Shown piece after piece: positions 7,588 to 45,282 of a stretch of DNA of 64,000 nt. The notes beneath the pieces are model-generated. The model searched no databases. It saw nothing but the letters and a program-made list of their open reading frames with translations, and had not been told where the DNA came from. Each line of letters starts with the position of its first letter. Position 1 is the first letter of the stretch. The position numbers were made by a program, and so were the translations under genes. The stretch comes from Actinopolymorpha sp. NPDC004070 (GTDB lineage Bacteria > Actinomycetota > Actinomycetes > Propionibacteriales > Actinopolymorphaceae). The DNA lies in NCBI RefSeq assembly GCF_040610475.1, contig NZ_JBEXMJ010000003.1:310001-374000 (forward strand), given 5' to 3'.

Positions 7588-7601
7588 GGGGAACCGCCAC
7601 C

Positions 7602-21765: not shown

Positions 21766-22218
21766 CTACTCTGGTTCGTTGTAGTCCTCGGCCAGCTTCT
21801 CCACGTGCTCGCGCAGGAAGGTGCCCGTACGCCGGTCGAGGGCGGTGGTGACCAGGGCGAGCGGGCAGTCCTCGTACCCATCGGCCATGCGGACGACTGG
21901 CAGCCGGTAGAAGGCGGTCCTCTCATCGTCCAGGTCGATGTCCCAGACCGCGTCGTCCACGTTCAGCGTGATCACCCTGCCGACGTGCCGGGCGGCAGCG
22001 TCGGCGACCCCGCGCTGGTCCAGGGCCAGGATCGCGTCCGGATCGGGATAGCGGTCCAGCAGGAAGCGTTCCAGCTCGTCCAGCGACGCCAGGTCGACGT
22101 CGAGTTCGCCGCCCATCAGCGCGTACAGCTCCTCCCTGACGTCGAGGTCCTGGGCCAGCCAGGTCTGGAACTCCTCGCGTGAGTGCATGCGCATCGGGGC
22201 CAGGTTCATGGCCGCCAT
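21766..22218 (-). CDS. Small acidic protein downstream of DUF4157 payload; candidate immunity protein
   Basis: A 150-residue acidic protein that I do not assign to a named family. It is the last gene of the injection-system operon and starts seven bases after the payload gene. ATG 22218 is preceded by AGGAAG and AGGTG. The first half is a negatively charged helix-like region and the second a mixed strand region ending LAEDYNEPE. There is no signal peptide or membrane segment. A small acidic cytoplasmic protein directly after a large gene with a toxin-like C-terminus is the classic position of a cognate immunity protein, and strong negative charge is common among nuclease inhibitors. It could instead be a loading chaperone for the payload. 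The function is inference from position only. Confidence 0.6.
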   Translation of the reverse strand: MAAMNLAPMRMHSREEFQTWLAQDLDVREELYALMGGELDVDLASLDELERFLLDRYPDPDAILALDQRGVADAAARHVGRVITLNVDDAVWDIDLDDERTAFYRLPVVRMADGYEDCPLALVTTALDRRTGTFLREHVEKLAEDYNEPE

Positions 22219-22225
22219 TGTGCAC

Positions 22226-25200
22226 CTACTTCTTCCTGGCCGGCGGGAGGATGCGTTCGGACAGGCGGGAACTGCGCTGCGACGAGGTGCGGAGTTCGAT
22301 GATGATGCCGGCGGAGAGCAGCTCCGCGCGAAGCGGGCCACTGGGCTTGCAGTCGATGAAGATCCAGGTGAGTTCCCAGTCGTGGCGGCGTACGAGCCTG
22401 CGGTCGCGCTGGACCTCCGAATCGATGTCCTTGCTCAGGTAGACCGTTCCTTCGTCGTACGCCTTGACTTCGGCACCCCTCAACTTCTCCGGGTCGGCCA
22501 GATCCAGTCGGCGTACCTCGTCGCCGCCGAGCTTGACGGTGTGCTCCTTCTCCGGCCAGCCGAGCCGGGCGCGCTCGGCCGCGACGATCTCGTTGGCCAC
22601 GTTGGCCCGCTCGACGTTGGAGCGGTAGACCCGCTCCCAGCTCGCGCGGGGCATCTCCCCGTTGTCGAGCTGGTACATCTCCCAGCGGGTCTCCATGTGC
22701 TCGGCTTCGCCGGGCGTGAGCTGGCGTAGTCGTTCCAGCAGCTGGCGGTATTTCGCCTGGTTTCGCTTCGCCACGCCGCGGGCGCTGACCCCGCTGGACG
22801 GGGTGAGCTCGCCGATCTCGATCCTGCCCAGGTGCTCGTCCAGTTGGGCGCGCAGGCTGTCGAGCTTGGCCTCGGCGTCCTCGCGGGCATTGCCCTGCAT
22901 CGACTCCATCGCGACCATGTGCTCGTTGATCAGCTTGGGCAGCTTGGCGATTTCCAGCCGGGCGTCGAACAACGGCTTGTTGCCCGGGTCCAGGGCGTTC
23001 CCGCCGAGCATGTTCGACAACCGGCCTAGTGCGCGCCGGACCTGGCCGAGGAGGCCCTGGTACTTCTGCATCGTCCGCACCGTGGCCTCGTGCAGTTGCA
23101 CCGTGCGCGGAAGGGCCTCCGCGCTGATCCGGATGGTGATCTCGCCGACCAGGCCGCTCTTGTCCGGCGTCCACTCAACTCGTACCGAGTCGCCGTGCAG
23201 GGTGTCGTCGACCACGGCCATCGACCGCAGGTCGGGCGGCAGCGCGTCGACGAGTTCCTTGGCTGTGGGACGTCGGTCGGCCCCCGCGGACTTCTCGTGC
23301 AGTTGGCCCTGCTCGCCGGCGGGCTCGTTCTCGGCCGGCCGCTTCTCGGCTGGCTGCTTCTCGGCTGGCTGCTTCTCGGCTGGCTGCTTCTCGGGTACGG
23401 GCTTGTCGGTGCCGGTCTGCTCCTCTGTACCGGCGGGCCGGTCGGGGACCCGCGTCGGCTCGGATGTCCTGGCCGCCGCGCCCTCCTCGTTCACGGCCTT
23501 CGACGCGGCCTTGGCCTCGGCCCGGTACTTCAGCATGTTCCCGGCCAGGAACAGCCCGTTGTTCTGGATCGCCGCGTTGAGTGCGTCGGCCCTGGCCCGG
23601 CGGGCGGCGGCGTGGGTCATCCCGGAGTTGGGGTCGTTCTCGGCGGCGTTGATGGCCAGGATCTGGTCGGCGAACTGGATGTCGCCCCACAGCAGCCCGG
23701 CGTACCCGATGGCCTCGTTGGCGAGTTCGGCCGCCTTCAGCAGACCCTGCGCGCCCTTGACCGCCTCGGCCGCCCGGGCGAGTTGCGCCGGGCTCGCACC
23801 GCCCTCCTCCAGGATCGTGAACGCCCGCCCCATCCGCTCCACCCGCAGGTTCGCGACCAGGCCGGCACCCGCACCCAGACCGCCGAGGATGCCGAGGATG
23901 TCGCCCACGGTCTCGGCGTTCAGCGACAGCTTGTGCGCCTTCCAGCGCTGGATCAGCCGGATGGCCGCAGCCGCCGCACCGATGAGCGCGCTCGCTGTGC
24001 CGGCCGAGGCGACGAACAGCCCCACCGCCGCGAGCGTCATCACCAGGTCGTCGATCCGCTTGAGCGCGAGTGCGGTGTCCGCGGGTGCGCTCTCCACCAG
24101 GAACTCCAGCTTCGCGCCCGCTTCCATCCCGGGAAGCCCGGCCGTGCGGGCACCGACCGTGCCGCGCCCGTACGCCGCCTTGCGTCCGAACGCCTCCAGC
24201 GCCGAGTGGAACGCCTCGCTCGGGGTGTCGCGCAGCTCGCCGACGTACTGGCCGCCGGTGTCGAGCTGGGTGACGTCGTTGATCATCCAGCGGTGTTTGC
24301 CGCCGGTGCCGCCCATCGGCCCGGCCGTCATCATCAGCGGGTAGGCCTGGGCGGAGACCTCCGAGATCAGCGTGGCGTTCACGCGGGTCATTGCCTGTGG
24401 GACGACGCCGGGTTCGAACGACGCGAGCCGGTCCTTCTCGTTCGCCTCGTAGAGCGCGATCTGCTCCTTGAGGGTGTCGACCTCGCGCTCCTTCGAGTAC
24501 GCCGACAGGGTGGGGTAGTCGGTACGGAACTTCGCGAGCTCCGCTTCCTTCTCGGCCAGCCGGCGGCTGAGCAGGGTCACCGGCGACGCTGTGTACTGCT
24601 CCTCCGCACGCTTGAGGAGGTCGCGGAGGTACTCGGCCTTGGCCTTGTTGCCGCTCTTCTCGGCCAGGGCGATGTCCGCGCGCAGGACCGCGAGCTGGGC
24701 CGCCGGATCGTCCAGGGACTCCTGGACCGCGCGCTCCATCGGCATGACCTCGACGACGTGCCCGGCGACCGACGGCGGCCGGATGATCTCCTTGCCGTCC
24801 TTGTCCTCGTGTACGGCCGGGGTGGTGATCACGCGGATGAGGAAGATCCCGTCCTTGGGGAGGTTCACCTCCTGCTGCTGGCGCGGACCTGAGAACAGGT
24901 CGGCGATGAAGTGCGCGATCGCGCCCACCGCGGTGATCAGGAAGGAGACGGGAGCGAGTTCGAGGGTGAGCACGTTTGCCTGGGCGTTCAGCAGCCGTTC
25001 TGCGGAGGTCTCGCCGTGCGGGTCGCCGGCGTCGCGCGCGGCCCGCCGGTTGTCCTTCCACCAGTCCTCGAACTCGCGCCGGAACTCCCTTCGGGCCGCT
25101 GCCGTACCGGTGACGTCGGTGCCCGCCCCGCGCTTGGCGCTGGTGAAGTCGGCGATGTTCTGGTCGAGCGTGCGCCCCTCTCCGGGTGCGCTGCCGTGCG

Positions 25201-26533
25201 GGTCCTTCGTGTGCGCGGGATCCTTCGCGATCTGCTTGCGGGCGTACGACGTGATGTCGAAGTAGTCCCACTGGTAGTGGATGCTCTCGCCCACCTGCGT
25301 GATCGCCTGCGACTGCCAGCTCCAGTTGCCGTTGGCCGACCAGTCCACCTTCGCGGAGAACGTCGGGCTGGAGTCGGTCGGCGCGAGCTTGGGGCCCTCG
25401 ATGCCGACCGGCCACGGCGGAGCGTTCGCGGGTTTGCCGTCGCCGCGCCCGGCGATCGGGCTGGCGTAGATCGTGGCCTTCTCGCCCCCGCCCTTGCCGC
25501 CGCCGACACTGACGATCTTCGGTACGAAGTAGATGACCACCGGCTTGGGTACTGACATCACCTGCGAGATCAGGGCCGCCGGGTCGGTCAGCTCCTTCAT
25601 CAGGTCCAGCGGTCCCTGGACCTGGGTCGGCTTCGCCGGCCGGCCCGCCTTCTCGGCGGCCTCCTTCTCCTTGGTCGCGGCCTCCTGCTCCTCCTTGGTC
25701 AGCGGCCGGGTGGCCACCACACTGCGGCCGTGTCCCTTGTCGTCGACGTCGAACCGCTGGCGACCGGTGTTCGCCTCGAGTTCGATCGCGGCGAGAGACC
25801 CGTCCGGCTGCATCAGATACACACCCGGCACGAAGCTCGCCCTCGGCTTGGCTTCGGTGGCCTCCTTCATCGCCACCCGCGGGCCGAGCGGGCGGCCCTG
25901 GGTGTCGTACGCCTTGGCGAACGACGCGCTCAGGCCGATGTAGACGTAGTTGGGGCCGTCGTTCGCGCCCACCTTTGCGAGCTTCTGCGCGGCGTCGTCC
26001 ATGCCGCTTGCTTCGACCTGGAGCCGGATCCACCGCTCGGCTGAGGGATCCTTCGTGGTAGGCGTGGTCGTGTTGGTCGGCGTGGTCGGAGCACGCAGCA
26101 GCCGGGCCGGCCCGGGCGGCGGGGCGAGTACGTGCCCGAGTTCGTGTTCCAGCAGCGCCTGCCCACCCGGGGTCTGCGGGCTGAACTCGCCGTGGGCGAA
26201 GAAGATGTGGCTGCCGGTGGTGAAGGCTCGCGCGCCGGCCTGCCCGGCCAGCTCGGCGGCTGCGGCGTCGGTGTGGATCCGTACGTCACGTAGGTCCGCG
26301 CCCAGCCGCTGCCCGTACTCCGCGGCCAGTCCCGGTGCCAGCGGGCGAGCGTGGCCGGCCCGAGCGGCGACCGGTGCGGGGGTGCCCGCCGGCAGCGCGG
26401 CCGCGGGAGCGACGTCCCGCGTGCCGACCGCGACCCCGAGCCCGGCCCCACTGCTCACCCGCGCGTCGGCGGCCCGCTCGGCGGCGTCCCCCGGGACGGA
26501 GAGCAGGTGCGGGGCGAACAGCGGTTCCGGCAC
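22226..26533 (-). CDS. DUF4157 (eCIS core domain) payload with C-terminal nuclease-like domain
   Basis: A protein of about 1435 residues. Residues about 66-135 match DUF4157, the domain that marks eCIS-associated effectors: an RLGADLRDVRIHTD segment, the FTTGSHIFF strand and the zincin-like HELGH at 130-134 (bases 26132-26146). The middle is long, with several hydrophobic helices typical of large polymorphic toxins, then a PAEKQ repeat linker, then helical segments. The last ~110 residues look like a PD-(D/E)xK nuclease: an Asp-rich strand followed by AEVKAY (E1355, K1357) and a WELTWIFID strand. The start is uncertain: GTG 26533 overlaps the upstream TAG, while GTG 26545 would add four residues. 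I infer a toxin loaded in or on the particle. No signal peptide is present, as expected for eCIS cargo. Confidence 0.85.
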   Translation of the reverse strand: MPEPLFAPHLLSVPGDAAERAADARVSSGAGLGVAVGTRDVAPAAALPAGTPAPVAARAGHARPLAPGLAAEYGQRLGADLRDVRIHTDAAAAELAGQAGARAFTTGSHIFFAHGEFSPQTPGGQALLEHELGHVLAPPPGPARLLRAPTTPTNTTTPTTKDPSAERWIRLQVEASGMDDAAQKLAKVGANDGPNYVYIGLSASFAKAYDTQGRPLGPRVAMKEATEAKPRASFVPGVYLMQPDGSLAAIELEANTGRQRFDVDDKGHGRSVVATRPLTKEEQEAATKEKEAAEKAGRPAKPTQVQGPLDLMKELTDPAALISQVMSVPKPVVIYFVPKIVSVGGGKGGGEKATIYASPIAGRGDGKPANAPPWPVGIEGPKLAPTDSSPTFSAKVDWSANGNWSWQSQAITQVGESIHYQWDYFDITSYARKQIAKDPAHTKDPHGSAPGEGRTLDQNIADFTSAKRGAGTDVTGTAAARREFRREFEDWWKDNRRAARDAGDPHGETSAERLLNAQANVLTLELAPVSFLITAVGAIAHFIADLFSGPRQQQEVNLPKDGIFLIRVITTPAVHEDKDGKEIIRPPSVAGHVVEVMPMERAVQESLDDPAAQLAVLRADIALAEKSGNKAKAEYLRDLLKRAEEQYTASPVTLLSRRLAEKEAELAKFRTDYPTLSAYSKEREVDTLKEQIALYEANEKDRLASFEPGVVPQAMTRVNATLISEVSAQAYPLMMTAGPMGGTGGKHRWMINDVTQLDTGGQYVGELRDTPSEAFHSALEAFGRKAAYGRGTVGARTAGLPGMEAGAKLEFLVESAPADTALALKRIDDLVMTLAAVGLFVASAGTASALIGAAAAAIRLIQRWKAHKLSLNAETVGDILGILGGLGAGAGLVANLRVERMGRAFTILEEGGASPAQLARAAEAVKGAQGLLKAAELANEAIGYAGLLWGDIQFADQILAINAAENDPNSGMTHAAARRARADALNAAIQNNGLFLAGNMLKYRAEAKAASKAVNEEGAAARTSEPTRVPDRPAGTEEQTGTDKPVPEKQPAEKQPAEKQPAEKRPAENEPAGEQGQLHEKSAGADRRPTAKELVDALPPDLRSMAVVDDTLHGDSVRVEWTPDKSGLVGEITIRISAEALPRTVQLHEATVRTMQKYQGLLGQVRRALGRLSNMLGGNALDPGNKPLFDARLEIAKLPKLINEHMVAMESMQGNAREDAEAKLDSLRAQLDEHLGRIEIGELTPSSGVSARGVAKRNQAKYRQLLERLRQLTPGEAEHMETRWEMYQLDNGEMPRASWERVYRSNVERANVANEIVAAERARLGWPEKEHTVKLGGDEVRRLDLADPEKLRGAEVKAYDEGTVYLSKDIDSEVQRDRRLVRRHDWELTWIFIDCKPSGPLRAELLSAGIIIELRTSSQRSSRLSERILPPARKK
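23330..23394 (-). repeat. Tandem 15-base repeat encoding PAEKQ units
   Basis: About four head-to-tail copies of a 15-base unit lie inside the payload gene and encode PAEKQ-PAEKQ-PAEKQ-PAEKR. A diverged extra unit (PAENE) follows. The repeat is in frame, so copy-number change would alter only the length of the linker between the central part and the C-terminal toxin-like region. It is a coding microsatellite, not a CRISPR array. Confidence 0.9.
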
Positions 26534-29133
26534 TACGGCACGCACCGATCGTGTGGGACCGATGCCGGTACCAGGGCCGGCCCGGTTCCGGCGCTGTTGA
26601 TCACGTCGCTGACGTACATCAGTCGCGGGGACCGGCCCCACTGGGAGTGGTCGGTGATCGCGAGCCCGGTGGTGAACGGCCCGGTAAGGTCCAGGCCCTG
26701 CACGCGCAGCAGGTAGCCGAGCCGGCCGTGGACGCGTACCGCCTCGACCGAGGTGGCGGCGACCGCGGCGAGCACGATGGCGCTGGCGCCGATCCGCTGC
26801 AGGGAGGCGCTGTTCTGGGTCATCGTGAGGCTGTTCACGCTGCCCACGTAGTAGGCGTGCCGCGACCGGCGCCAGAAGAACGGCACCGCGCTGGCCACGT
26901 CGTTGCCGTTGACGACCACCTGTCCGGCGTTCGCGGTGGCGCCGCCCTCGCCGCTGAGCCCGACATGTACGCCCTGGACGGCTCCGCTCACCGAGTTGCC
27001 CTCGATCCGGACCTGGCCCGCCCGCATGCCGGCCACGACGATGCCCTGGGCCATCGCCCGCGCGTTCGCTGCCGTGGCGAGGAACCGGCTGGTGTCGTTG
27101 GACAACTGCACGCTCTGCGGGGCGAGCAGAGCACGCCGGACGAACTTCTGCAGCACCTGGCGGGGGGTCCCGCGGCTGAGCGCGTTCTCGGTCACTGTCC
27201 GGCCGAACTGTGCGGCCAGCCGTTGCACCACGCTGGCGCCGGCCACCCGCATCGTCGCGCCGCCGGGCAACGTGACGACCTGGCCTGTGGTGGCGTTCTG
27301 CCCGGCGACCACGTGCGAACCGACGAACGACGCGAGTTCGTGCACCAGCAACGGGTGCAGGACGACCTGGTTGCCCTGCGGTGCCGGGCCCAGCCGGATC
27401 TCGTTCCCGGCCACGAGCACCTCGTCCGCGGAAACCACCAGTACGCCCGTCTGCGCGTTCCCGACCTCCAGGAGGTTGTCGAGCACCCGCACCCGGCCGC
27501 TGGATCGGCCCCGGGTGAACGTCCCGGCGAAGACGGCCGACTGCGCCAGGCCGGGGCTGTCCGGGCAGGCGATCTGACAGTCGCGCACGGTTGCCCCCGG
27601 ACTGTCGACGAACGTGATCGCGCCGAGCAGGTGTTCGTCGCCGGCCGGATTGTTGGGCTGTGCGGCCAGGCCCGCCTCGACCCGCAGGTCGCGTACGGTG
27701 ACGTCGCGACAGTTGAGGAACTGCAGCACGCTCTCGTGCCCGGTGCAGCTCAGCACGGTGGCCGGCCCGATCCCGGTAACCACCACCCGGATCCGGTTCT
27801 TGACCACCACCGGCTGGTCCAGCCGGTAGGTGCCGGCCGCCAGGCACAGCTCGCCGCCGCTGGTGGGTAGCGCGTCGGCGGCCGCCTGCAGGTTGTCGCC
27901 GGGGAACGCGGTGACGGTGCAGGTGGTCCCGCGCAGCGCGGTCAGTGCCGGGAAGTGCGGCCGGCAGTCGCTCAGCACCGTCCGGGTGCCGAGGTCGACC
28001 ACGGCCAGGGCCTGGACCACGTGCCGTGTGCCGTCGGCCGGTGCGTCGGCCAGCTCCTCTACGGCATCCGCGCTGGATCCGCGTACGCGTACCGCCCACC
28101 AGTCCCCGGCGAGGTACTGGCCCGAACTCGCGGTGAACGCCACCCCGACGTCCACGCCGCCGAGCAGCGCGGTGACCTGGGTGGCGGCGCCGACCGCCTG
28201 CCCGTCCCAGCGCCGCAGGCACAGTCCGGACGGGGTGCCGGTGACCGCGGCGGCTGTGGTGAGCGTGACCACGCTCCCGCCGGCACCGGGGTCGACGTGG
28301 TCCACCTGGAACAGCGGTCCGTGGTCGAGCCGGTCTGCACGGCGTACCAGCGTGCTGACCTCGACCAGGTCACCGGGGAAGAAGCTGATGTCGGGGGACG
28401 GTTTGAGGGTGGCGAGCGTTCCGGCCAGGGTCGCCGCCACCGCGGCCGAGCCGTTCTCGAACGACCAGCCGAACCTCGCGGTGGAGGCCGACCCGGAGTC
28501 GAGCACCTCGATCCGCAGCAACCCGTCCGGCAGTTTGCCGCGTGGGTCGTCCGGCGGCGCGCACGGATCCGTCGGCACAGGTGGTGAGGTACGGACGACA
28601 TCCAGCCGGCCGGTGCTCACTTCCAGCTGCGGCAGCGCGGGCGCCGCGCCCGCGCAGGACGTGGCGTTTACCGCAGCCGCCCGCACCCGCCATCCGGTGC
28701 GCGTACGGGTCATCGTGTCGGTGCCGGCCAGGGCAGGGTCCAGCAGGGCATCCGGGTCCTCGGCGGCCTGCACCTCCTCGGAGAAGACATCGAGGTAGAC
28801 GACGGCGGTCCCGGAGGCGGGCAGCGCGGGCACCGACTCCTGCGCGGCGTAGGGAAGCAAGGTCGGGTTGACAGCGCGTAACCCGCCCGCCCACATCTCA
28901 CCGGCTCCGACCTGCAGGGTGCCGTCCGCGGCGAACGTGACGCCGAACGCCGTGCTGCCCTCGGCCACCCCGGCTGGGCCGACCACCGCCGCGGCGAGCC
29001 GGTCGGTCTCCCGGCGGGCGCCGTCCATCCCGAGGTTGTAGTCGCCGTCGAGGAGCATCCGGCCCTGCTGCATGCGCGCGCTGGTCCACCGGTCGCCGGC
29101 GCGCAGGGGAACTGAGGTGTGGTCGCCGGTCAC
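26533..29133 (-). CDS. DUF6519 / right-handed beta-helix protein of the injection system
   Basis: An 866-residue protein. The N-terminus (RMQQGRMLLDGDYN, residues about 21-34) matches the DUF6519 signature found in large proteins of contractile injection loci. From about residue 400 the chain becomes an array of short strands with N/D/V-rich turns typical of a right-handed parallel beta-helix (pectate-lyase-like), including a PGDNLQAAADALP entry segment. It lies one base after the tail protein I gene and just before the payload. Position and fold suggest a baseplate-attached spike or fibre-like element, or a carrier for the payload; no enzymatic residues can be assigned. ATG 29133 is in line with operon spacing. 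Confidence 0.75.
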   Translation of the reverse strand: MTGDHTSVPLRAGDRWTSARMQQGRMLLDGDYNLGMDGARRETDRLAAAVVGPAGVAEGSTAFGVTFAADGTLQVGAGEMWAGGLRAVNPTLLPYAAQESVPALPASGTAVVYLDVFSEEVQAAEDPDALLDPALAGTDTMTRTRTGWRVRAAAVNATSCAGAAPALPQLEVSTGRLDVVRTSPPVPTDPCAPPDDPRGKLPDGLLRIEVLDSGSASTARFGWSFENGSAAVAATLAGTLATLKPSPDISFFPGDLVEVSTLVRRADRLDHGPLFQVDHVDPGAGGSVVTLTTAAAVTGTPSGLCLRRWDGQAVGAATQVTALLGGVDVGVAFTASSGQYLAGDWWAVRVRGSSADAVEELADAPADGTRHVVQALAVVDLGTRTVLSDCRPHFPALTALRGTTCTVTAFPGDNLQAAADALPTSGGELCLAAGTYRLDQPVVVKNRIRVVVTGIGPATVLSCTGHESVLQFLNCRDVTVRDLRVEAGLAAQPNNPAGDEHLLGAITFVDSPGATVRDCQIACPDSPGLAQSAVFAGTFTRGRSSGRVRVLDNLLEVGNAQTGVLVVSADEVLVAGNEIRLGPAPQGNQVVLHPLLVHELASFVGSHVVAGQNATTGQVVTLPGGATMRVAGASVVQRLAAQFGRTVTENALSRGTPRQVLQKFVRRALLAPQSVQLSNDTSRFLATAANARAMAQGIVVAGMRAGQVRIEGNSVSGAVQGVHVGLSGEGGATANAGQVVVNGNDVASAVPFFWRRSRHAYYVGSVNSLTMTQNSASLQRIGASAIVLAAVAATSVEAVRVHGRLGYLLRVQGLDLTGPFTTGLAITDHSQWGRSPRLMYVSDVINSAGTGPALVPASVPHDRCVP

Positions 29134-29134
29134 G

Positions 29135-31246
29135 TCATTCCTCCGAGCCGATGATGTCGAGGTGAGGGTGCACTGTGAGCGGGGTCATCTCCGGCAGCCG
29201 TTGGGCGAGCCGAAGTGCGAGCGGACCGCGCCGGGCGTGGTGGTAGGCGCCGATCTCGCCGCCGTCGGAGGCGCCGCTGAGCGCCGGGTCGGCGCCGCGT
29301 CCGGTAGGCGCGGTCAGTACGGGTGCGTAGTAGCCGGCCGATTCCGCACCGGTGGAGGCGAGCGCGGGCAGCGGGCCGGTCAGGCAGCAGAACGGCGAGG
29401 GGTGAGCCTGGGCGTCATCGGCGTCGCCGAGGTGGCAGAACCGCAGGCCTCCCGCTGAGGTCACCACTGCCCGAACACCGTCCAGGAACAGGCAGTCCGA
29501 CGCGGTGATGGTGTCCACCGCGACCAGGCCCGCGAACGTGCAGCCGTTGGTCCGCAGTTGTGGTGGGAACCGGTCGGTGGCGGCGACCGCGGGCACTGGA
29601 GCCGGCGCGGGTGGCGGCGCGCCACACGGGCTGAGTGTGGCCCCGGCGCCGTCCACGACACAGTCGGCCAGGTCGATGGGGAAAGCGCTGAGGTCGGCGC
29701 GTATCGGACCGAGATGGCAGTTGACCGCGCGGAGCCGAAGCGTCCACGCCCCCGGCTCCACGGTCACGGTCCGCCCGGCGGCCGGGTTCGTCGTGACCCC
29801 GGTCAGGGTCACCGACGCCATGTCGGCACCGATGGCGAGGTCGCCTTCGAGGAACATCCCAGCGAGGTCGAGGTGCAGCCCGGGCGCGCGAACCTCCCAG
29901 GTGCCGGTGACCACGGGGGTGAGCCCGGTGGGTGCGACGATCCGCCACCGGGTCAGCGCCGGAGTGGCGGTGAGCGGAGGTGGCGCGGCGAGCCGATCGC
30001 TGGTGGCCAGCCGGATCTCGACGTCGGGGTGACCGGCCGGCGCGGTACGCGAGCCGGGCAGCGCCAGGGCGGCGGTGACGGCGTCGGCCAGCGTTGTCAC
30101 CACGGTCTGGCCGGGCGCGTGCGGCCCGAGCGCGGGGTCCACCACGATCACCGTCCCGGCCCGGTCGTCGCCTTCGGCGTCACTGGCCAGCGCGCCGATC
30201 CGGCCGGGCGTGGGCCGGTACGCCATCACCCGCAGTGGGCCGGTGCGGTTGGCGCCGGGAAGGAGTACGCCGCGCGCCAGGTCGACCAGCACCTGGTCGG
30301 CCGTCGGGGTCGGACCTCCGCCGGACGGCAGGCTCGTCAGGCCGATGTCGGTCCAGGGCACCGGGTCGCCGTCGACCGTGATCGCCAGCAGCGCCGGGTC
30401 ATCCGCAGCCCCGGCGGTCAGCGGGTGGCCGGGCCCCAGTTGCCAGACCGGGCCGTATCCGACCTCGTCGGGGGCGAGTGCCTCGATCAGCCGCCAGGTC
30501 GCGCGCAGCGGCAGGTCACCGGCTGCGCGGGGCGGGCGCAGCGCGGGTGGGCTGCCCGGCGGGCGTTCGTCGTCGGCGTCTCCGCCGACCACCACCGCGT
30601 CCGGACGCAGGTAGAGCGGTGCGGGCAGGCCGAGCGGATGAACGGCGAACCGGCCGTCCGGCAGCGGGCACGCCTCGCTCAACTCGAACCGCCGTACCTG
30701 CCAGGGGAAGACGGTGGCGGTGACCGCGGCCGGGTGGTGCGGCCCGCCCGGGGTGAGGCTGCGCCGGGCAGGGTCCAGCCCGGTGCCGGCCATCAGGTGT
30801 TCGCGGCGGCGCAGCGACAGGCTGGCCGTACGGCGGATCGGGTGGCGCAGTTGCTGGGCCCAGATCGTGGTCTGCCAGCCCTCGGTGACCCGCGCCTGCC
30901 ACCCGGTGACCACGGTGGCGAAGTCCTCGATCGCGGCCGGCGTACCGCGGCGCCGGCGTAGAGCCGTGGCCGAACCGATCTCGGCCCGCCCGGCGTCGGG
31001 CGGCAGGCCCAGCACCTGGGCCAGGTAGGGCAGTGCCCAGTCGGCCGCGCTGTCGGGGAAAGCGTCATCGAGCACCCGGTCGGCGTCGGCGGCCAACTCG
31101 AGCCACTGCCCCTCCAGCGCCTCCAGCAGCGCCAGCAGCACGGGCACGCCATCGGGATCGGCCGGCGCCAGCAACGCCGGTGGCAGCATGGCCAGGAACC
31201 GCGCGGAAGGGCCAGGCCCTCGGCCTGGCGAGGTCGTTCCGCTCAT
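29135..31246 (-). CDS. Phage tail protein I-like baseplate protein with long C-terminal extension
   Basis: A 703-residue protein starting at an ATGA overlap with the upstream baseplate gene. Residues about 20-140 resemble the phage tail protein I domain: a helical start with FLAMLPPALL, then LPYLAQVLGL and an RRRRGTPAAIEDFATVVTGW segment. The rest is a strand-rich extension (about 550 residues) with a beta-helix or jelly-roll character, far longer than phage P2 gpI. In eCIS such proteins join the baseplate wedge to the periphery. The domain call rests on visible motif resemblance plus its place immediately after the two J-type proteins. Confidence 0.8.
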   Translation of the reverse strand: MSGTTSPGRGPGPSARFLAMLPPALLAPADPDGVPVLLALLEALEGQWLELAADADRVLDDAFPDSAADWALPYLAQVLGLPPDAGRAEIGSATALRRRRGTPAAIEDFATVVTGWQARVTEGWQTTIWAQQLRHPIRRTASLSLRRREHLMAGTGLDPARRSLTPGGPHHPAAVTATVFPWQVRRFELSEACPLPDGRFAVHPLGLPAPLYLRPDAVVVGGDADDERPPGSPPALRPPRAAGDLPLRATWRLIEALAPDEVGYGPVWQLGPGHPLTAGAADDPALLAITVDGDPVPWTDIGLTSLPSGGGPTPTADQVLVDLARGVLLPGANRTGPLRVMAYRPTPGRIGALASDAEGDDRAGTVIVVDPALGPHAPGQTVVTTLADAVTAALALPGSRTAPAGHPDVEIRLATSDRLAAPPPLTATPALTRWRIVAPTGLTPVVTGTWEVRAPGLHLDLAGMFLEGDLAIGADMASVTLTGVTTNPAAGRTVTVEPGAWTLRLRAVNCHLGPIRADLSAFPIDLADCVVDGAGATLSPCGAPPPAPAPVPAVAATDRFPPQLRTNGCTFAGLVAVDTITASDCLFLDGVRAVVTSAGGLRFCHLGDADDAQAHPSPFCCLTGPLPALASTGAESAGYYAPVLTAPTGRGADPALSGASDGGEIGAYHHARRGPLALRLAQRLPEMTPLTVHPHLDIIGSEE

Positions 31247-33765
31247 GCCGTACGCACCCCCAACCCGGCAGCCACGACGTGAAGGAGTTCGTAGGGTTCG
31301 GCGGGCAGCCGGCCGAGGGACAGGTCGCCCGCCGCCGGTGTGGTCAGTCCACCGGTCAGCTGCAGGCCGGAGATCCCCGAGACGCCGGGTACCGGCTGCA
31401 CCACCGCGACCACATCGCTGCCGTCCAGGGGTACCCCCAGGTCGCGGGCCCCTGCCCCGAGCACGCCGGCCGGGTCGACCAGCGCCGCCCGTACCTGCGA
31501 CTCCACCACCGCCGGGATCCGCCGCTCCCCGACGAAGACGTCGGCGGTGACAGTGACCGCGCTGGCCACCGCCGCACACACGCACAGCGGTACGGCGGTG
31601 TCTCGCCGGGCGTCCAGGTAGCCGCTCAGCGCGACGAGTTCGGCGGCGACCGGCGCACGGACCCCGTGTGACCGGCCGCGCAGGACGGCGACGTGCAGGC
31701 CCGAACCGCCGCAGGCGCACCCGGACGGACCGGACCCGCGCCAGGCCACCGCGTGTGTGGTACCCGGAACGGTCAGCGCGAGGTCGCGCAGGTCACCCAT
31801 CCCGACCGCCCGGTCGAGCGCGCGGATCCGGGCCCCGGCACCGCGGCGCATCCGCGGAGGGTCCTCCTGGTCGGCCGCGCCGGTGAGCGGACCAACCCCG
31901 GCGATCGTGCGGACGCCGTTCACGCCTGTGACCAGGGTGTCGATGTCCGCGCTTGGGATCTCCCCGGCCAGCCCGCCGCCGGTACGCCAGACCGCACGCA
32001 CCTCTCCGCGCGGCAGAGCACCGGTGACCCCGTCCCCGAACGCCAGCACCAGCCGGCCGTCGGCGGCCAGCCGGGTGGCGTAGACGAGGTCGGTCGGGCC
32101 GCGTCCGTACAGGCTCGGCACCTCGTCGAACCGCACCCCGTCCACGTATATGACCAGGCTGTTGGTGACGGTGCCGTCGGGGCCGACGTCGCCGGTGACC
32201 GGCCCGGTCACGATCGCGGTGGACCCGCCGGCGCCGGCCGCCGGGATCAGGGTCAGCGGCCCCTGTCCGGTGGCCCCGTGCCGGATCGGGGCCACGTTGC
32301 CCGTCGCGGCGCCGCGATCGACACGACCCGTCCGCGCGTCGGCGAGGCTGACCAGCCGGCCGCCGGGATCGCCGGGTGCGTCCAGTGCGCTGGCGGTGCA
32401 CCTGGTCAGCTCCCAGCCGGGGCGGCCGTCGGCGCCGACTGTGCGAACGGCCAGCCTCTCGGGCAGCCCGGGCAGGTCGGGTATCCGCGGGTGCAGCCGG
32501 GCGGTGGCCCGGTTGCCATCGAGGGCGGGGAGTTCGTAGTGCTGGGCGACGTGCCGCTCGTCGGCGAGCAGGACCGTCAGCCCGGTCGTACGCAGCACGT
32601 TGGGCAACGGGTGCGCGAGTTCCAGCCGGGCCACCCGCCGGACCGTGCCGGGCGCGACGTGCCGGTCCAGCGGGGTGATCGACGCAACCGTGGTGACCAG
32701 GCAGTTGCCTGCCTTTCCGGCGTACAGGATCAGCGTCTGCCCCACGCTGACCTGCCCGGCCTCCAGCACCAGTACCGACGTGGCGTCCCAGGGTTCGCCC
32801 TGCTCACCGGACGGGTACGGCGCGCTCACCGTCGCGGCCGTGTTGCCGCTGACGTACGCCATGGTGTCCAGTCGGTACGCGAGGGTGAGTTCGGCCCGCA
32901 GCCGGTAGGCCGCGTAGCTCGTCCCGGGCGTCTGCGGCAGCAGCGGTGCCAGCGACCGGTCGGTGTCGAACAGGGTGGCGCCGAGGTCGTCGCTCCGCTT
33001 GGTGATCCGGACGGTCCCGCGGACGGCCATTCCGGTCGAGCCGTAGTACGCCGTACCCGTCATCAGTGCGACCAGCCAGGCGATCCACTCCTCCCAGGTG
33101 CTCGGCGCCGGCGGGGTGCCGCTCTCGGAGACCAGCACCATCTGGTCCGGCGGGCGGAACCCCGGGTCGGCGAGGAAGCGGATCTGCCGACCGGCCGGCG
33201 CGGCGGGCGCCGGTACGCCCGTGACGGTGAGGCCGTGCCACTCCGGATGCAACTGAGTGTCCGCCGCCACCTCGTACGTCTGCGCGTCGTGCTCGGGAGT
33301 GCCGGGCGCCTGCACCCGCGTCCCCGCCGGGAGCAGTGGTGAACTCCCGGGCGCGATCTCGGCCCGGACGAACCCCTGCGCCGCGGTGCGCTGTGCCGGC
33401 CGGTAGCCGATCAGGTCCACCAGCCGGCGTACGTCGGTCCAGTCCTGGGCGGTGCCGAGGTAGAGCTCGCCGGCGTCCAGTTCGGCGTACGCGGAGACAC
33501 CGTCGGCCACGCGGGACCACAGGTCGGCGAGGGTGACGACGGTCGGGTCGCCGGCGACGTCGAGCAACGAGCCCAACGGCATCGGGTCGCCGCCACTGCC
33601 CCCACCGTTTGCGGGCGGGATCCGGACAGCGGCCATCCGGGCCAGCAGGTCGTCGCGCAGGGCGGTCCGGTCACCCAGCCGGCGGCGCAGGCGGGCCAGG
33701 CCGGGCGGCGGATCGGTCGGCGGTGGGAGCGGTGTACTCATCGGTGTACTCGTCGGCGTGTTCAT
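31243..33765 (-). CDS. Putative baseplate assembly protein (J-like, second copy, Afp12-type position)
   Basis: An 840-residue protein of the putative baseplate assembly family seen in eCIS (gpJ/gp47-like). It has a Pro-rich N-terminus, then an LGTAQDWTDVRRLVDLIGYR segment typical of the family, a strand-rich centre and a C-terminal region with a DxxAVVQPVPGVSGI motif like that of phage J proteins. ATG 33765 overlaps the previous stop as ATGA and the gene ends in ATGA with the next. Together with the preceding gene it should form the wedge ring that triggers sheath contraction. A longer in-frame start is excluded because it would run deep into the upstream baseplate gene. Confidence 0.85.
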   Translation of the reverse strand: MNTPTSTPMSTPLPPPTDPPPGLARLRRRLGDRTALRDDLLARMAAVRIPPANGGGSGGDPMPLGSLLDVAGDPTVVTLADLWSRVADGVSAYAELDAGELYLGTAQDWTDVRRLVDLIGYRPAQRTAAQGFVRAEIAPGSSPLLPAGTRVQAPGTPEHDAQTYEVAADTQLHPEWHGLTVTGVPAPAAPAGRQIRFLADPGFRPPDQMVLVSESGTPPAPSTWEEWIAWLVALMTGTAYYGSTGMAVRGTVRITKRSDDLGATLFDTDRSLAPLLPQTPGTSYAAYRLRAELTLAYRLDTMAYVSGNTAATVSAPYPSGEQGEPWDATSVLVLEAGQVSVGQTLILYAGKAGNCLVTTVASITPLDRHVAPGTVRRVARLELAHPLPNVLRTTGLTVLLADERHVAQHYELPALDGNRATARLHPRIPDLPGLPERLAVRTVGADGRPGWELTRCTASALDAPGDPGGRLVSLADARTGRVDRGAATGNVAPIRHGATGQGPLTLIPAAGAGGSTAIVTGPVTGDVGPDGTVTNSLVIYVDGVRFDEVPSLYGRGPTDLVYATRLAADGRLVLAFGDGVTGALPRGEVRAVWRTGGGLAGEIPSADIDTLVTGVNGVRTIAGVGPLTGAADQEDPPRMRRGAGARIRALDRAVGMGDLRDLALTVPGTTHAVAWRGSGPSGCACGGSGLHVAVLRGRSHGVRAPVAAELVALSGYLDARRDTAVPLCVCAAVASAVTVTADVFVGERRIPAVVESQVRAALVDPAGVLGAGARDLGVPLDGSDVVAVVQPVPGVSGISGLQLTGGLTTPAAGDLSLGRLPAEPYELLHVVAAGLGVRTA

Positions 33766-36293
33766 CGGCCGCCCTCCACGGTGAGCATGATCCGGCCGCG
33801 GTCGGGCGCGTCCGGGTCGTCGTCGCAGACCGCCACCTCCGCCGGGCCCATCGGCAATACCGCGGCGACGGTGCCCGGCGGGTCGGACAGCCGCCGAGCC
33901 TCGGTCACCGCCACCGCGTCCACGTGGGGAAGCGCGGCCACCGCGGCGACCACGGCGGACAGGTAGACGTCGGCGCCCATTGCGTGACTGCCGGGCGCGA
34001 ACAGTCCCGGCGCGTCGGGACTGCCCGGCCGCAGCGCCGCGAGGATCGCGGCTCGTCCGGCACCGGGATCGGAGCCGGGGAACAGGCAGACGGTGAAGGC
34101 GATCAGGATGCCGACCGGAGTGGCGGGGACGGCGACCACCTCTGTCCCGGCCATCCGTACCGCGTCCAGCGCCGCCTGCACCCGCGCCGCGAGAACCGGA
34201 GCCGGGTCGGCCCCGCCCTGCCCGGCCTGAGCCTGCTCGTACGCCACCACCCCGACCGGCCAGGAGCCCGACCAGGACCGCCGCGCGGAGGCGCGGCGTA
34301 CTCCCACGACCTGCGCGGCGAAGCCGGGAAGGTCGCCGATCAGCACGGCCCTGCGGGGCACGGCGGAGTAGGCCTGCGGCGCGTCGCGGCGTACGTCGTC
34401 CAGAGGAGTGGCGCGCGCCCCGCCGGTGCCGGGCGTGAGGTTGCGCGCGCTCACCGCGGCGGCACCGGAGTCCAGGACGTCCTGCCACACGCACGGCACC
34501 CCCGCACCGGAAGTGGTGCGCACCAGCCGGCGAGTCACGCCGGCGGCCACGTTCCCTGCCGGCCCGGCGCCGATCTGGTAGCGCGCCGAGACCTGGCTGC
34601 CCGCCGGGGGTTCCAGTCCCAGCGCGCCCGTACGGAACCGCAGGGTGGCGGGCAACTCGTCATCGGCGTCCACCACGACGCTGAACCCCGCGGTGCCGGC
34701 CGCCAGCATGGAGTGCACGCGTTCGGCCCGGACGCGGACGCCGTTGGGCAGGGTCACGGTGACGTCGAGCTGCCAGGGACGCCCGCCCGGGGCACAGGCC
34801 AGACCGGGCGCGGCTTCCGGACCGGCCGCGACCAGCAGCCAGTCAGCTACCTCCTCCACCGCCGGGTCGGCCCGGCGGCCGGTGAGCCGGTCGACCGGCG
34901 CGAGGGTGGCCGGCCCGTCGACCAGCAGCCCGTGGTGGGCACCGAACACCCCGAGCCGGGCCACTCCCACGCGAGGCCCGTCCGATCCGGCGTCGCCGAG
35001 GTCGATGCTGCACGGCACCGGCGCGACCAGGGCGTCCTCGGCGGCCCACCACACGCGGACCAGCTCCAGCCCGGGCCGCAGCGGGTCGGTGATGTCCTCG
35101 ACCGCGGTGAGGGTGACGACCTTGGCGGGGTGGCTCGCCAGCGGTTCCCGCGGCCATACGTCGGCGGCCGTCGGTACGGTCGTCGCGGCCCAGTTCCGCT
35201 GCCGGGTCACGTCGTCCACCGCGACCACTTCGAGGCCGAGCAGGTCGCCGGGCGCGAGCCAGTCCGCGTTCCCGGACGCCGCCGCTGGGCGGACCAGCAC
35301 CGCGCTGGTGGCGCCGGCGGTGAGCATTGCGTCGTCCTCGGTCCAGTCGTACAACGCCACCTCGGCGTGACTGGCCCATACGCTCGCGGGCGTGGCCGGC
35401 TCCAGCGTGAAGCAGGCGGCGGGATCGTCGATCCTGGTCGTTCCCGCAGGGGTGGCCGTGGCCAGGTCGCCGGGCCGGACCGTGACGCTCGGATCGCCCC
35501 CGCCACCTCCGCCGCCCGCTACGACGACCTGGACCGCGGTGGCGGCACTGACCGAGGGCCGTACGGGAAAGTCGACCGCCCGGGCGTGCCGGACCACGTT
35601 GGCCCGGCGGCGCGCGGTGGACAGCCAGCCCTCCGTGGTCACCCGGTCGAGCCGGTAGTGCAGCAGATCACCCAGGTGCGCCATCAGCTCCAGCGCGGTG
35701 ACGGTGAAGTCCGGCGCGCTCAGGTCGGCGGCGGGGTCGAGCGCGGTCAGGCGTTCGAGCAGCATCTCGCGAAGCGCTGGGTAGTCGCGGGCCAGCGTGT
35801 CGTAGTCCGGTGGCGTGAGCGGCCGGGGCGGCCCGGGCACGGTGACGGTGTCGGCGACGTCGGTGCACTCCGGCCGCAGCCGCACCGGCAGGTGGGCGCG
35901 CAGCGGATCGACCTCCAGGCCGGTCGGGTCGAACCGCAGTTGGTACACCCCACGACCGGGGAGTCCGCCGTCCAGGGTCAGGGTGAGGTGCGACGGGATC
36001 GGGGAGCCGTCGGCGTCCGTCCCGGCGGCGACGGCCACGGCAGCGCTCACCGTCGGGCGGGGCGCGCCGGGCGCCGGACGCAGCAGCCATCGGCCCGGGT
36101 CGGCCAGCACGGCGGGCGGATCGCCGTACATCCACACGTCGAGGAGGCGGGCACCCCCGGTCAGCCGGCAGGTTGCCGCGCGCAGCCCGACCACCCCGCC
36201 GGTGCCGGCGAACAGCGCCCTGGGCCGCTTGACCGGGGTTGCGACGGGCTGGATCGGCTGGACCGGCTCGGTGTCGGAAGGTGGCGTACTCAC
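33762..36293 (-). CDS. Putative baseplate J family protein (Afp11-type)
   Basis: An 843-residue baseplate wedge protein. A strand-rich N-terminal region precedes the typical wedge segment around residues 175-240 (LREMLLERLTALDP, then LMAHLGDLLHYRLDR), followed by a seven-Gly run near residue 260 and a long domain array. The C-terminal part (VDAVAVTEARRLSDPPGTVA) resembles the conserved end of gpJ-like proteins. The start ATG overlaps the gp25 stop and the gene is followed by a second, divergent J-like gene. A tandem pair of large J-like proteins is normal for eCIS loci (Afp11/Afp12) and helps to separate this locus from ordinary myophages. Confidence 0.88.
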   Translation of the reverse strand: MSTPPSDTEPVQPIQPVATPVKRPRALFAGTGGVVGLRAATCRLTGGARLLDVWMYGDPPAVLADPGRWLLRPAPGAPRPTVSAAVAVAAGTDADGSPIPSHLTLTLDGGLPGRGVYQLRFDPTGLEVDPLRAHLPVRLRPECTDVADTVTVPGPPRPLTPPDYDTLARDYPALREMLLERLTALDPAADLSAPDFTVTALELMAHLGDLLHYRLDRVTTEGWLSTARRRANVVRHARAVDFPVRPSVSAATAVQVVVAGGGGGGGDPSVTVRPGDLATATPAGTTRIDDPAACFTLEPATPASVWASHAEVALYDWTEDDAMLTAGATSAVLVRPAAASGNADWLAPGDLLGLEVVAVDDVTRQRNWAATTVPTAADVWPREPLASHPAKVVTLTAVEDITDPLRPGLELVRVWWAAEDALVAPVPCSIDLGDAGSDGPRVGVARLGVFGAHHGLLVDGPATLAPVDRLTGRRADPAVEEVADWLLVAAGPEAAPGLACAPGGRPWQLDVTVTLPNGVRVRAERVHSMLAAGTAGFSVVVDADDELPATLRFRTGALGLEPPAGSQVSARYQIGAGPAGNVAAGVTRRLVRTTSGAGVPCVWQDVLDSGAAAVSARNLTPGTGGARATPLDDVRRDAPQAYSAVPRRAVLIGDLPGFAAQVVGVRRASARRSWSGSWPVGVVAYEQAQAGQGGADPAPVLAARVQAALDAVRMAGTEVVAVPATPVGILIAFTVCLFPGSDPGAGRAAILAALRPGSPDAPGLFAPGSHAMGADVYLSAVVAAVAALPHVDAVAVTEARRLSDPPGTVAAVLPMGPAEVAVCDDDPDAPDRGRIMLTVEGGR

Positions 36294-37049: not shown

Positions 37050-37532
37050 TCAGCCGACCGTCAGCGCGTCGCCGTTGAGGGACACGCTGGCGCCGCTGAG
37101 TTCCACGGTCGCGCCCTGCCCGTTGTCGAGCACGATGCCGTCGGAGCTCAGGGTCAGCGAGGCGCCGCCAGAGGTGGTGAGCGTGATCGAGGAGTCGTCG
37201 TCGGAGACCTCGATCCGGTGGCCGCCGGGGGTGACCAGCAGGATCGTCCCCGGCCCTGCACCCTTCACCCCGTTCCCCGAGGTCCAGGTCGCACCCGACC
37301 ACACCGGCTTCTTGGCCAGGTCGCCGCCGGGCCACTCCACCCAGACGGTCGCACCGACCGGTGGCACCGCGGCCAGGCCGACACCGTTCCCGGCGTACGG
37401 CAGGGCAGGCCTGCACCAGCCGGTGGGATGACGCAGCAGCGTCGGTACGGCGACGTCGAGGCGGCACAGCCCGGCCGGATCGTCGTTGTCGACGACGACA
37501 CCCTCGAACTTCCCCCAGTAGCGATCAGTCAT
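37050..37532 (-). CDS. gp5/VgrG-like central spike protein with OB fold
   Basis: A 160-residue protein. Its N-terminal half matches the OB-fold of phage baseplate assembly protein V and VgrG proteins (RYWGKFEGVVVDNDDP, then VGATVWVEWPGG). The C-terminal half has repeating short strands ending in GLY/Ser/Thr turns, like the beta-helical needle. It is short compared with gp5 and lacks a lysozyme domain. It lies 39 bases after the hub gene, the largest gap inside the operon apart from the one after the regulator. It forms the puncturing spike below the tube with the PAAR-like tip. Confidence 0.88.
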   Translation of the reverse strand: MTDRYWGKFEGVVVDNDDPAGLCRLDVAVPTLLRHPTGWCRPALPYAGNGVGLAAVPPVGATVWVEWPGGDLAKKPVWSGATWTSGNGVKGAGPGTILLVTPGGHRIEVSDDDSSITLTTSGGASLTLSSDGIVLDNGQGATVELSGASVSLNGDALTVG

Positions 37533-37571
37533 CTCCCGCTCTCCCTCCTCGTCCGGCGTCCCGTCCCGCGC

Positions 37572-38678
37572 TCACAGCGACACCGAAAGGCCGGCCGCCG
37601 CCGCGAGCGCCCCCAGTCCGGTCGCCGCGCCGGAACTGCCGTCGCCCAGCGCGTTCCGGGTGAGGCTGAGGGCCTGGGTGTGCCCGGCCGGGCTGATCGT
37701 GTGGCGTACGGACTTGACCAGCCACAGCCCCGACACCATCGACCCGAGCCCGCGTACGGTCACCGTCCTGCGCGCCCGCAGCAGCGGCATCGACGGGGCC
37801 GAGATGGTCACCGACAAGGTCGCCCCGAACGCCGACGACTCGGCCAGCACCTGCGCCGCTTGTTCGGGCGGCAGCCGTCCAGGCAGGTCGTGTTCGTCGC
37901 GCAGCACGGTGGTGGCCCCGCCCAGCGAGATCGGCCCCATCTTGTGTCCGGTGCCGTCGTTGCTGGCGACCTGCTGCTGGGACTGCCCCTCCGCGCTGTG
38001 GGTGACGTTGACCTTCTGCCCGGACACCAGTTGGACGCTGACGGACGCGGTGCCGCCGAGCGCGCCGTAACCCAGGTCGAGTGTCGCCTGGGGTGCGGCC
38101 AAGGGGTCGGTACGATCGAAGACCCCGACCAGCCGGCCGTGCTCGCTGGTGACGTAGACGTCGAAGTCGTTGCGTGCGGCGAGGGTCTTCAGGTACGCCC
38201 AGTCAGTCGCGCGCTGGTGCGGGGTGAAGGTGTCCGTGCCGTCCGGCTGCGGGGTGGTGCCGACGCGGGGCGTACAGATGGTGCCGAGCAGGGTGGTCGC
38301 GATGTTCGCGTCGCTGACCCCGCCCCAGGCCTTGTCGTGCTCCTCGCGGTCCAGGTCGGCGCTCGCGTCCAGGCCCGCGATGGTCAGCGAGGACAGGGCT
38401 CCCGCCTGCAGCGACCAGGCGGCACTGGTCGCCCGCGCCGGTACGACGAGTTCGTCCTGACCGCGGGTGATCGCGACCTGGAACGGCGCGAACGGACCGA
38501 CCAGCGCGTCCAGCGGACTCGTCCAGTCGCTGCGATCGCTCACCCGGGCGGTGACCACCACGCTCACCTGGGTCTGGGCGCCCATCGCCTCGCTCACGTC
38601 GACGCTCTGCACGCTGTCGAGCGCGTTCGAGGGCAGCGGCTTGCCGCCCACCGAGACGACGACCGAGGTGTCACTCAT
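37572..38678 (-). CDS. gpD / VgrG-N-like hub protein (Afp8-type)
   Basis: A 368-residue hub protein. The pattern of strands and the segment FTPHQRATDWAYLKTLAARN near the middle are typical of phage late control gene D and gp27-like hubs that join the tube to the spike. ATG 38678 is chosen because it overlaps the LysM gene stop by eight bases and gives a sequence starting with the usual MSDTSVVV strand. The longer open frame upstream lies wholly within the LysM gene. The end is a Gly/Ala-rich tail. Confidence 0.87.
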   Translation of the reverse strand: MSDTSVVVSVGGKPLPSNALDSVQSVDVSEAMGAQTQVSVVVTARVSDRSDWTSPLDALVGPFAPFQVAITRGQDELVVPARATSAAWSLQAGALSSLTIAGLDASADLDREEHDKAWGGVSDANIATTLLGTICTPRVGTTPQPDGTDTFTPHQRATDWAYLKTLAARNDFDVYVTSEHGRLVGVFDRTDPLAAPQATLDLGYGALGGTASVSVQLVSGQKVNVTHSAEGQSQQQVASNDGTGHKMGPISLGGATTVLRDEHDLPGRLPPEQAAQVLAESSAFGATLSVTISAPSMPLLRARRTVTVRGLGSMVSGLWLVKSVRHTISPAGHTQALSLTRNALGDGSSGAATGLGALAAAAGLSVSL

Positions 38679-38937
38679 CGGGGATCCCGATGGTGGTGCC
38701 CGGCTCGGAGTCGCGCAGGGCGTCGGCGTACGGGTTGGTGTCGGCGATCCGCCACCAGCCGGTGCTGTCGCCGAGCGCGGTCGCGGCCAGCAGGTCGAGC
38801 CGGTCACCTGCGCGGGCGGTGTAGACGAGGGCGGCCGGAACCGCGGCGGCGATCCGTGGCACGCCCATCGCACGGGCCGGACCCTGGTCCTGCGGCACCG
38901 TGATCGTCGTCTGGCCGGCGTAGCGGGAGGCGGTCAC
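38671..38937 (-). CDS. Small LysM-domain baseplate protein
   Basis: An 88-residue protein. The C-terminal half is a LysM domain: YTARAGDRLDLLAATALGD, then the WWRIADTNPYADAL segment. Small LysM proteins (Afp7 C-terminal part, phage tail X) join hub and tube in contractile particles. Both ends overlap neighbouring genes, four bases with the CIS-tube protein and eight with the hub. No signal peptide is present, so it is a structural protein and not a cell-wall-targeted enzyme. Confidence 0.88.
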   Translation of the reverse strand: MTASRYAGQTTITVPQDQGPARAMGVPRIAAAVPAALVYTARAGDRLDLLAATALGDSTGWWRIADTNPYADALRDSEPGTTIGIPDE

Positions 38938-39572
38938 AACATCAGCTCCACACCCTGGGCGACGCCGGCGACGGCGAGGGTGCTGCGCACCGCCTGGTAC
39001 GCCTGCGCCATGAAGCCGGCCAGCTTGAGGTTGCTGTCGAGGTCTGCGGGCCGGAGGACGGTCAGCCCGAGGTCCACCGTCGCCTGCACCGGGAGCAGAC
39101 CCGCGTTGAAGCCGGTCTCGTGAGCGGAGAACGACGTTATCCGGACCGGCACGATCCGGGTGGGGCTCCAGGCCATGACGACGAGCGGGAGGGATGGCGC
39201 GGGGATAGGGCCGCCGCCCCCACCGCCGCCGCGAAGCGCCGAGACCGCTCCGGCCAGCGCACCACCGACGGCGCCGAGGACGCCCAGCTTCCCGGCCGGC
39301 TCCATCATCGCCTCGATCGTGGCCAGCAGCGGCTGCACGCCCATCACGCCGCTGATCGGTTTGTCCACGGCGTCGACCGCGTCGAGTTCGATCTTCAAGG
39401 TGTACGCCTCGGCCGGTGGTCCCGCGACCCGCAGCGCCGGCCCGCCCTGCTGCCCGGCCGCCACGGTGAGCGTGCGGGTGATCTCGGCGGGGTTGTACTG
39501 GAACGGCGCCATCGTCGGCACCAGCCCGATGTCCGGGTCGGAAAACGACAGCAGCATCCCGCGCATCAGCAT
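38934..39572 (-). CDS. CIS tube adaptor protein (Afp7 N-terminal type)
   Basis: A 212-residue protein resembling the contractile injection system tube family. It begins with a LLSFSDPDIGLVPTMAPFQYNP-like strand region (the FQYNP motif is characteristic) and ends with a helix (FMAQAYQAVRSTLAVAG). A Gly-rich stretch lies in the middle. ATG 39572 is preferred: GGGAG lies upstream at a good distance and it overlaps the small protein's stop by seven bases. In well-studied systems this protein is fused to or paired with a LysM domain; here the LysM part is the next, separate gene. Confidence 0.85.
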   Translation of the reverse strand: MLMRGMLLSFSDPDIGLVPTMAPFQYNPAEITRTLTVAAGQQGGPALRVAGPPAEAYTLKIELDAVDAVDKPISGVMGVQPLLATIEAMMEPAGKLGVLGAVGGALAGAVSALRGGGGGGGPIPAPSLPLVVMAWSPTRIVPVRITSFSAHETGFNAGLLPVQATVDLGLTVLRPADLDSNLKLAGFMAQAYQAVRSTLAVAGVAQGVELML

Positions 39573-39751
39573 GCCGGATCTCCCTTCTGTGTAAGGGACT
39601 TCGCGGAGGTGACGGCGTCGGCGACCGCCTGTCCGAGGGCGGGCTCGGGTCCGGGCCGGCCGGCCAGCGCCGCCTCGATGCCGGGTCGGATCAGGCCCGG
39701 TACGGGCGCCGTCGGCACCGTCACGTCCAGTCGGGCGATGTGCTCGCTCAT
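39566..39751 (-). CDS. Small conserved-position protein of the eCIS operon
   Basis: A 61-residue protein tightly placed between the AAA+ ATPase (four-base overlap) and the CIS-tube adaptor (seven-base overlap). It has an amphipathic first part with strand character and an Ala/Val-rich helical centre. No family is recognised. Small proteins at this location occur in actinobacterial eCIS loci, so it is likely a real structural or assembly accessory rather than noise. Function unknown. Confidence 0.65.
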   Translation of the reverse strand: MSEHIARLDVTVPTAPVPGLIRPGIEAALAGRPGPEPALGQAVADAVTSAKSLTQKGDPAC

Positions 39752-44766: not shown

Positions 44767-44772
44767 GTCGAC

Positions 44773-45276: not shown

Positions 45277-45282
45277 CGGACC

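Follow-up and report, generated by a model that had tools for sequence, protein, structure and literature searches.

The payload gene and its C-terminal domain

The window analysed here is a 64,000-nucleotide stretch of the genome of Actinopolymorpha sp. NPDC004070 (contig NZ_JBEXMJ010000003.1, positions 310,001 to 374,000), and the gene of interest encodes a 1435-residue protein at the end of a cluster of extracellular contractile injection system (eCIS) genes. A preliminary description had read this protein as an eCIS payload with a DUF4157 domain, hydrophobic helices in the middle, a repetitive PAEKQ linker and a C-terminal PD-(D/E)xK nuclease. Our analysis bears out this layout and, more importantly, brings in the 150-residue gene at 21766-22218, which that description had overlooked and whose product is very probably the cognate immunity protein of the toxin domain.

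AlphaFold2 modelled the C-terminal domain (residues 1273-1435) with a predicted local distance difference test (pLDDT) score of 93.4 and a predicted template modelling score of 0.82. The model and the VIA-align list agree on a PD-(D/E)xK core fold in which the D and the ExK motif sit on adjacent strands; Foldseek with the same model gave no match at E <= 0.001. E1355 and K1357 lie where they had been placed, and conservation adds a third residue, D1344, that had not been listed, together with an invariant glutamate in the following helix (Table 1). The 23 aligned domains include the window's own and count one protein twice (L011 and P0077), leaving 22 that are distinct. The one column exception at K1357 is L012, in which an E-Y-K is displaced by a gap, and the lysine does not vary among the 15 rows of the alignment behind the AlphaFold2 model. 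The computed fold and conservation thus point to a metal-dependent nuclease that may use D1344, E1355 and K1357 in catalysis.

No Pfam model matched the C-terminal domain at E <= 3, Tox-REase-9 (PF15650) included, and Tox-REase-9 was not among the families matched at E <= 0.5 by the 15 members of alignment A5. Sequence searches of the PDB with the toxin profile, the immunity profile or the whole payload returned nothing below E 0.2; no relative appeared in viral contigs searched with the toxin alignment, or in phage records searched by tblastn with the Roseiflexaceae domain. Run against the order (293 genomes) and the family (8 genomes), the toxin profile found only the window's own genome, and among 396 genomes of the phylum it found the window plus weak matches in three genomes (L014-L018). 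Pfam, run on three of these five loci, gave DUF559/MTES_1575-like nuclease matches in L014 and L016 and RCC1 repeats with an RHS core in L015, and all three were rejected as members. A single weak match (L020), itself with a sub-threshold match to Tox-REase-9, came from 343 genomes of one genus of the same class.

Seven other full-length relatives, 49-68% identical to the payload overall, have its entire layout. The eCIS-type DUF4157 domain lies near the N-terminus, as PF13699 confirms, and H130, E131, L132 and H134 of the HELGH motif are invariant in all eight full-length sequences, the window payload among them. The signature of the PVC-metallopeptidases is HExxHxxQ-E (PMC3482391); the payload has HELGHVLAP, in which HExxH is present, the Q is absent and a third ligand was not identified, and self-cleavage is therefore not assumed. 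Kyte-Doolittle analysis found the expected mid-protein hydrophobic segments and weaker stretches within residues 319-343. Across 10 homologues, identity to the window payload is 39-71% in the DUF4157 region, 50-85% in residues 521-1020, 40-71% in residues 1084-1279 and 49-71% in residues 1280-1420; the region containing the PAEKQ repeats, at 12-39%, is poorly conserved and so is best seen as a spacer. These domain matches and region-wise differences agree with a modular protein, and since the block before the toxin falls outside the match in L011 and is matched partly and weakly in L012, we place a module boundary at about residue 1273. At E <= 1 the only other Pfam match of the payload is a sub-threshold extensin-like one (residues 1042-1073, E 0.096), and NCBIfam gave none at E <= 0.1. 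Residues 150-1000 of the chassis were found in the window's own genome only, among 296 genomes of the phylum, and were not found in 246 genomes by a search that had no positive control. A second DUF4157 protein is encoded on another contig of the same genome (L001, C22:2766-2996), with HEAAHVVQQ.

The downstream gene and the distribution of the pair

The product of the downstream gene is acidic, with a calculated isoelectric point of 4.3, and its AlphaFold2 model (pLDDT 93) is mostly helical. A protein search with it listed 67 proteins, the query counted; it matches no Pfam or NCBIfam family over the cut-off, and DUF6278 matches 12 of 31 members of the family, all below cut-off (best E 0.0026).

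Toxin and neighbour recur together. Starting from the toxin, all three close matches with flanking DNA have the immunity gene downstream. Starting from the immunity family, a scan of genome contigs gave at least 10 loci and plasmid records gave three; among the matches listed, 7 of 13 have the toxin as their immediate upstream neighbour (5 of 10 on genome contigs, 2 of 3 on plasmids), and the other six do not. It precedes the immunity gene in full-length payloads in Micromonospora, a Gemmatimonadaceae metagenome-assembled genome (MAG) and Stenotrophomonas, and on short unrelated carriers in Roseiflexaceae and Catenulispora. At four Nannocystis loci and one Pseudonocardia locus it was not found in the flanks examined, and none of the six distant toxin matches (L014-L018 and L020) has a same-strand adjoining immunity gene within stretches of about 3.2 kb, L020 showing a weak, divergent similarity to the immunity family. 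Toxin and immunity divergence are correlated across nine pairs (r = 0.94), a figure to be read with shared ancestry and one inferred pair in mind.

The carriers are of several kinds. Two of 72,556 plasmid records contain the toxin domain. In Streptomyces sp. NBC_01643 (L022) the pair accompanies a homologous stretch of eCIS cluster, with baseplate-V and other genes upstream, on a linear plasmid of 712,785 bases; transposase genes lie near the pair and, with the plasmid location, suggest mobility. In Rhizobium leguminosarum (NZ_CP071628.1) the domain forms the C-terminus of an open reading frame (ORF) with hemagglutinin repeats, a CdiA-like protein; this region (L023:97-8432) comprises two overlapping ORFs and may therefore be frameshifted or split. 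A search from the Roseiflexaceae homologue gave nine proteins, the query counted, two of which (P0084 and P0085) have the NCBIfam RHS core. Besides DUF4157 proteins, then, the domain occurs on hemagglutinin-repeat proteins, RHS proteins and other short carriers, and its putative immunity gene follows immediately in the proportions given above, as is characteristic of polymorphic toxins. Because the same pair recurs in unrelated bacterial warfare proteins, the downstream gene very probably encodes the antidote.

Individual loci vary. In the Catenulispora MAG (L012:7373-8825) three tandem copies of the immunity family, two of them in one ORF, follow a short toxin-domain protein. The third plasmid record (L024:6013-6447, Rhizobium) has an immunity-family gene without the toxin, downstream of a hemagglutinin-repeat protein, and SMI1/KNR4 and Imm63 family genes each lie 2-3 kb from it. 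The Stenotrophomonas pair is located between AAA ATPase and spike/baseplate genes, in contrast to its 3′-end position in the window, and the flanks of the Gemmatimonadaceae locus showed no further recognisable eCIS gene.

In the window the payload is the last large gene of one same-strand eCIS block, 3′ of the sheath, tube, Pvc16_N, AAA, spike and baseplate genes; several cluster genes have no family match. Its GTG start codon overlaps the TAG stop of the preceding gene by 1 base. Together with PF13699, this setting supports the eCIS assignment. Beyond the payload end of the cluster, on the plus strand, is a BREX/Pgl-type defence cluster (185-17347) with strong matches to PglW, PglX, BrxC/PglY, PglZ, BrxD and BrxHI, and between the two clusters a 1327-residue protein (17410-21393, plus strand), with weak AAA/NPHP3_N matches, is possibly a further defence ATPase.

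Table 1. Coordinates in the window of the payload, its parts and neighbouring eCIS genes
Feature	Position	Strand	Basis
Putative immunity protein, 150 residues (alternative ATG at 22209)	21766..22218	-	7 nt past payload stop
eCIS payload protein, 1435 residues	22226..26533	-	ORF boundaries exactly as in the preliminary description
Predicted PD-(D/E)xK nuclease toxin domain, residues 1273-1435	22226..22717	-	AlphaFold2, structure matches, homologues on other carriers
E1373, helix after ExK strand, invariant	22415..22417	-	23/23 aligned domains
E1355-V-K1357, ExK motif	22463..22471	-	E 23/23; K 22/23 by column
D1344 (RRLDLAD), predicted catalytic/metal ligand	22502..22504	-	23/23 aligned domains
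Conserved block of DUF4157 chassis before toxin, residues 1084-1272	22718..23284	-	Homologue alignment
Variable linker with PAEKQ repeats, residues 1021-1080	23294..23473	-	12-39% identity, 10 homologues
Hydrophobic segments, residues 826-861 and 875-898	23840..24058	-	Kyte-Doolittle
Hydrophobic segment, residues 519-550	24884..24979	-	Kyte-Doolittle
DUF4157/eCIS_core domain, residues 64-136, HELGH at 130-134	26126..26344	-	PF13699 E 8e-24; genome match C3:336126-336344
eCIS-cluster gene, 866 residues, weak beta-helix match	26533..29133	-	Homologue directly before payload in L022 and L003
Baseplate genes: Tail_P2_I-like and two Baseplate_J-like	29135..36293	-	Family matches
Phage_base_V spike protein, VgrG-related protein, small genes	37050..39751	-	Family matches
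AAA ATPase and Pvc16_N protein	39748..42983	-	Family matches
Two unassigned genes, tube (gp19), sheath	42980..47178	-	Family matches of tube and sheath

Proposed function and alternatives

We propose, with good though not full confidence, that the locus encodes an eCIS-delivered nuclease toxin with a cognate immunity protein and a bacterial target, be it rivals or the producer's own kin. The payload would be loaded onto the particle encoded by the same cluster, and by analogy with published eCIS work its DUF4157 domain may load or dock it: a DUF4157 effector co-eluted with a tagged spike tip (PMC11126660), and a DUF4157 protein has been proposed as a link between effector and baseplate (PMC13277306). 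The C-terminal 160 or so residues would cut nucleic acid, and the acidic helical neighbour, given its linkage to the toxin across unrelated carriers, would neutralise this activity in the producer and its kin. The pair would then be a polymorphic toxin-immunity cassette acquired by the eCIS of the window. Since a CdiA-like protein and other carriers also use the cassette, the target is probably bacterial, whether competitors or the producer's own cells under regulation; the immunity gene is the strongest pointer to it.

The substrate is the part of this proposal on which alternatives press hardest. PD-(D/E)xK toxins include both DNA cutters and RNA cutters, and nothing in the sequence decides the matter, so that cleavage of RNA, for instance tRNA, deserves serious consideration, although we think DNA the better guess. 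The top structural matches of the toxin model, which we take to be mostly DNA enzymes and several of which name DNA in their titles, argue against an RNA target, as does PoNe, a PD-(D/E)xK toxin shown to be a DNase (PMC6688995).

A second possibility, which we find rather unlikely, is that the particle acts within the producer's own colony, the nuclease driving regulated death or development and the downstream protein serving as a timing antitoxin. Streptomyces CISs are reported to play such roles, Streptomyces and Micromonospora are among the named hosts of close payloads, and the DUF4157-nuclease Tme of S. davawensis has been linked to phenotypes of the mycelium that produces it, although the main text of the report on Tme does not contain the word immunity (PMC11126660). 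That a CdiA-like protein and a Stenotrophomonas eCIS also have the pair fits inter-bacterial conflict better.

Adaptors are often small acidic proteins encoded next to their cargo, and the downstream protein, being small, acidic and encoded beside the payload, might be a loading chaperone; we give this little credence, since its family accompanies the toxin onto carriers without the DUF4157 chassis (L011, L012 and L023), occurs in tandem copies and has a member in the stretch with the SMI1/KNR4 and Imm63 genes. An anti-eukaryotic toxin like those of Afp/PVC particles is equally improbable: four eCISs were earlier shown to mediate interactions with invertebrate hosts (PMC8213781), but against such a target there would be no need to keep an immunity gene linked and conserved, and the domain also occurs on a hemagglutinin-repeat protein and on RHS proteins.

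A nuclease delivered to bacteria, with its antidote alongside, would bear on the question of what eCISs target. For most verified eCIS-associated toxins (EATs) an immunity gene has not been identified beside them (PMC8213781), and a notable proportion of such toxins likewise lack an identified one (PMC3482391); a linked immunity gene that recurs from Actinobacteria to Stenotrophomonas and with a CdiA-like protein therefore offers a testable case for bacterial targets. On the broader view, to which we would give even odds, this eCIS lineage is an antibacterial kin-discrimination weapon that swaps toxin-immunity cassettes with contact-dependent inhibition, RHS and other systems across phyla, the travelling nuclease and immunity families being as yet unnamed. 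The main interest of the locus lies in this cassette sharing and its bearing on eCIS targets; beyond this, it yields two protein families that no Pfam or NCBIfam model matches over cut-off, and candidate active-site residues.

Comparison with known systems

The suggestion that the combination might be undescribed holds in part. DUF4157-nuclease toxin fusions are already in print (PMC11126660, PMC11297309, PMC3482391), as are some pairs of eCIS toxin and immunity protein and the toxin repertoires that PVC-type systems have in common with others; what stands is that toxin and immunity family alike have no Pfam or NCBIfam match over cut-off, and the eCIS and toxin literature covered, outside which lie supplements and subscription papers, makes no mention of either.

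Tox-REase families 1-10 are similar in being C-terminal toxins of restriction-endonuclease fold on RHS, FilH and other carriers (PMC3482391); they differ in that the window domain has no Pfam match, only the distant L020 reaching Tox-REase-9 below threshold. PoNe/PoNi likewise combines a PD-(D/E)xK toxin domain, found in several secretion systems, with an immunity gene immediately downstream (PMC6688995). PoNi carries DUF1911/DUF1910, whereas none of the 31 members of the present immunity family matches either at E <= 0.5, which speaks against membership; the PoNe domain was compared by description only.

Among eCIS toxins, EATs and EAT-immunity pairs have the same DUF4157-toxin layout and position at the operon 3′ end (PMC8213781, PMC11297309). 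The toxin-immunity pairing is known for EAT5, which is RES-like and has a different antitoxin. EAT9 is named a restriction endonuclease, and reference is also made to a DUF4157-fused DNase domain (Jana et al. 2020); the window toxin was compared with both by description only. RS14790/RS14785 of Micromonospora eburnea also couples an actinobacterial CIS effector, of presumed nucleic-acid activity, to an immunity gene just downstream; again by description only, RS14790 is Sle1-type, a class said to lack DUF4157, in contrast to the window payload (PMC13277306).

A close parallel in overall design is Tme (BN159_7576), the S. davawensis CIS effector, which has an N-terminal DUF4157 domain, a long middle with hydrophobic regions, a C-terminal nuclease and a CIS cluster around it (PMC11126660). 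As described, the Tme nuclease is EndA-like, with DRGH and H-N-N motifs; the window payload does not share this feature of a Tme-type effector, its C-terminal domain modelling as PD-(D/E)xK and being linked to an immunity gene.
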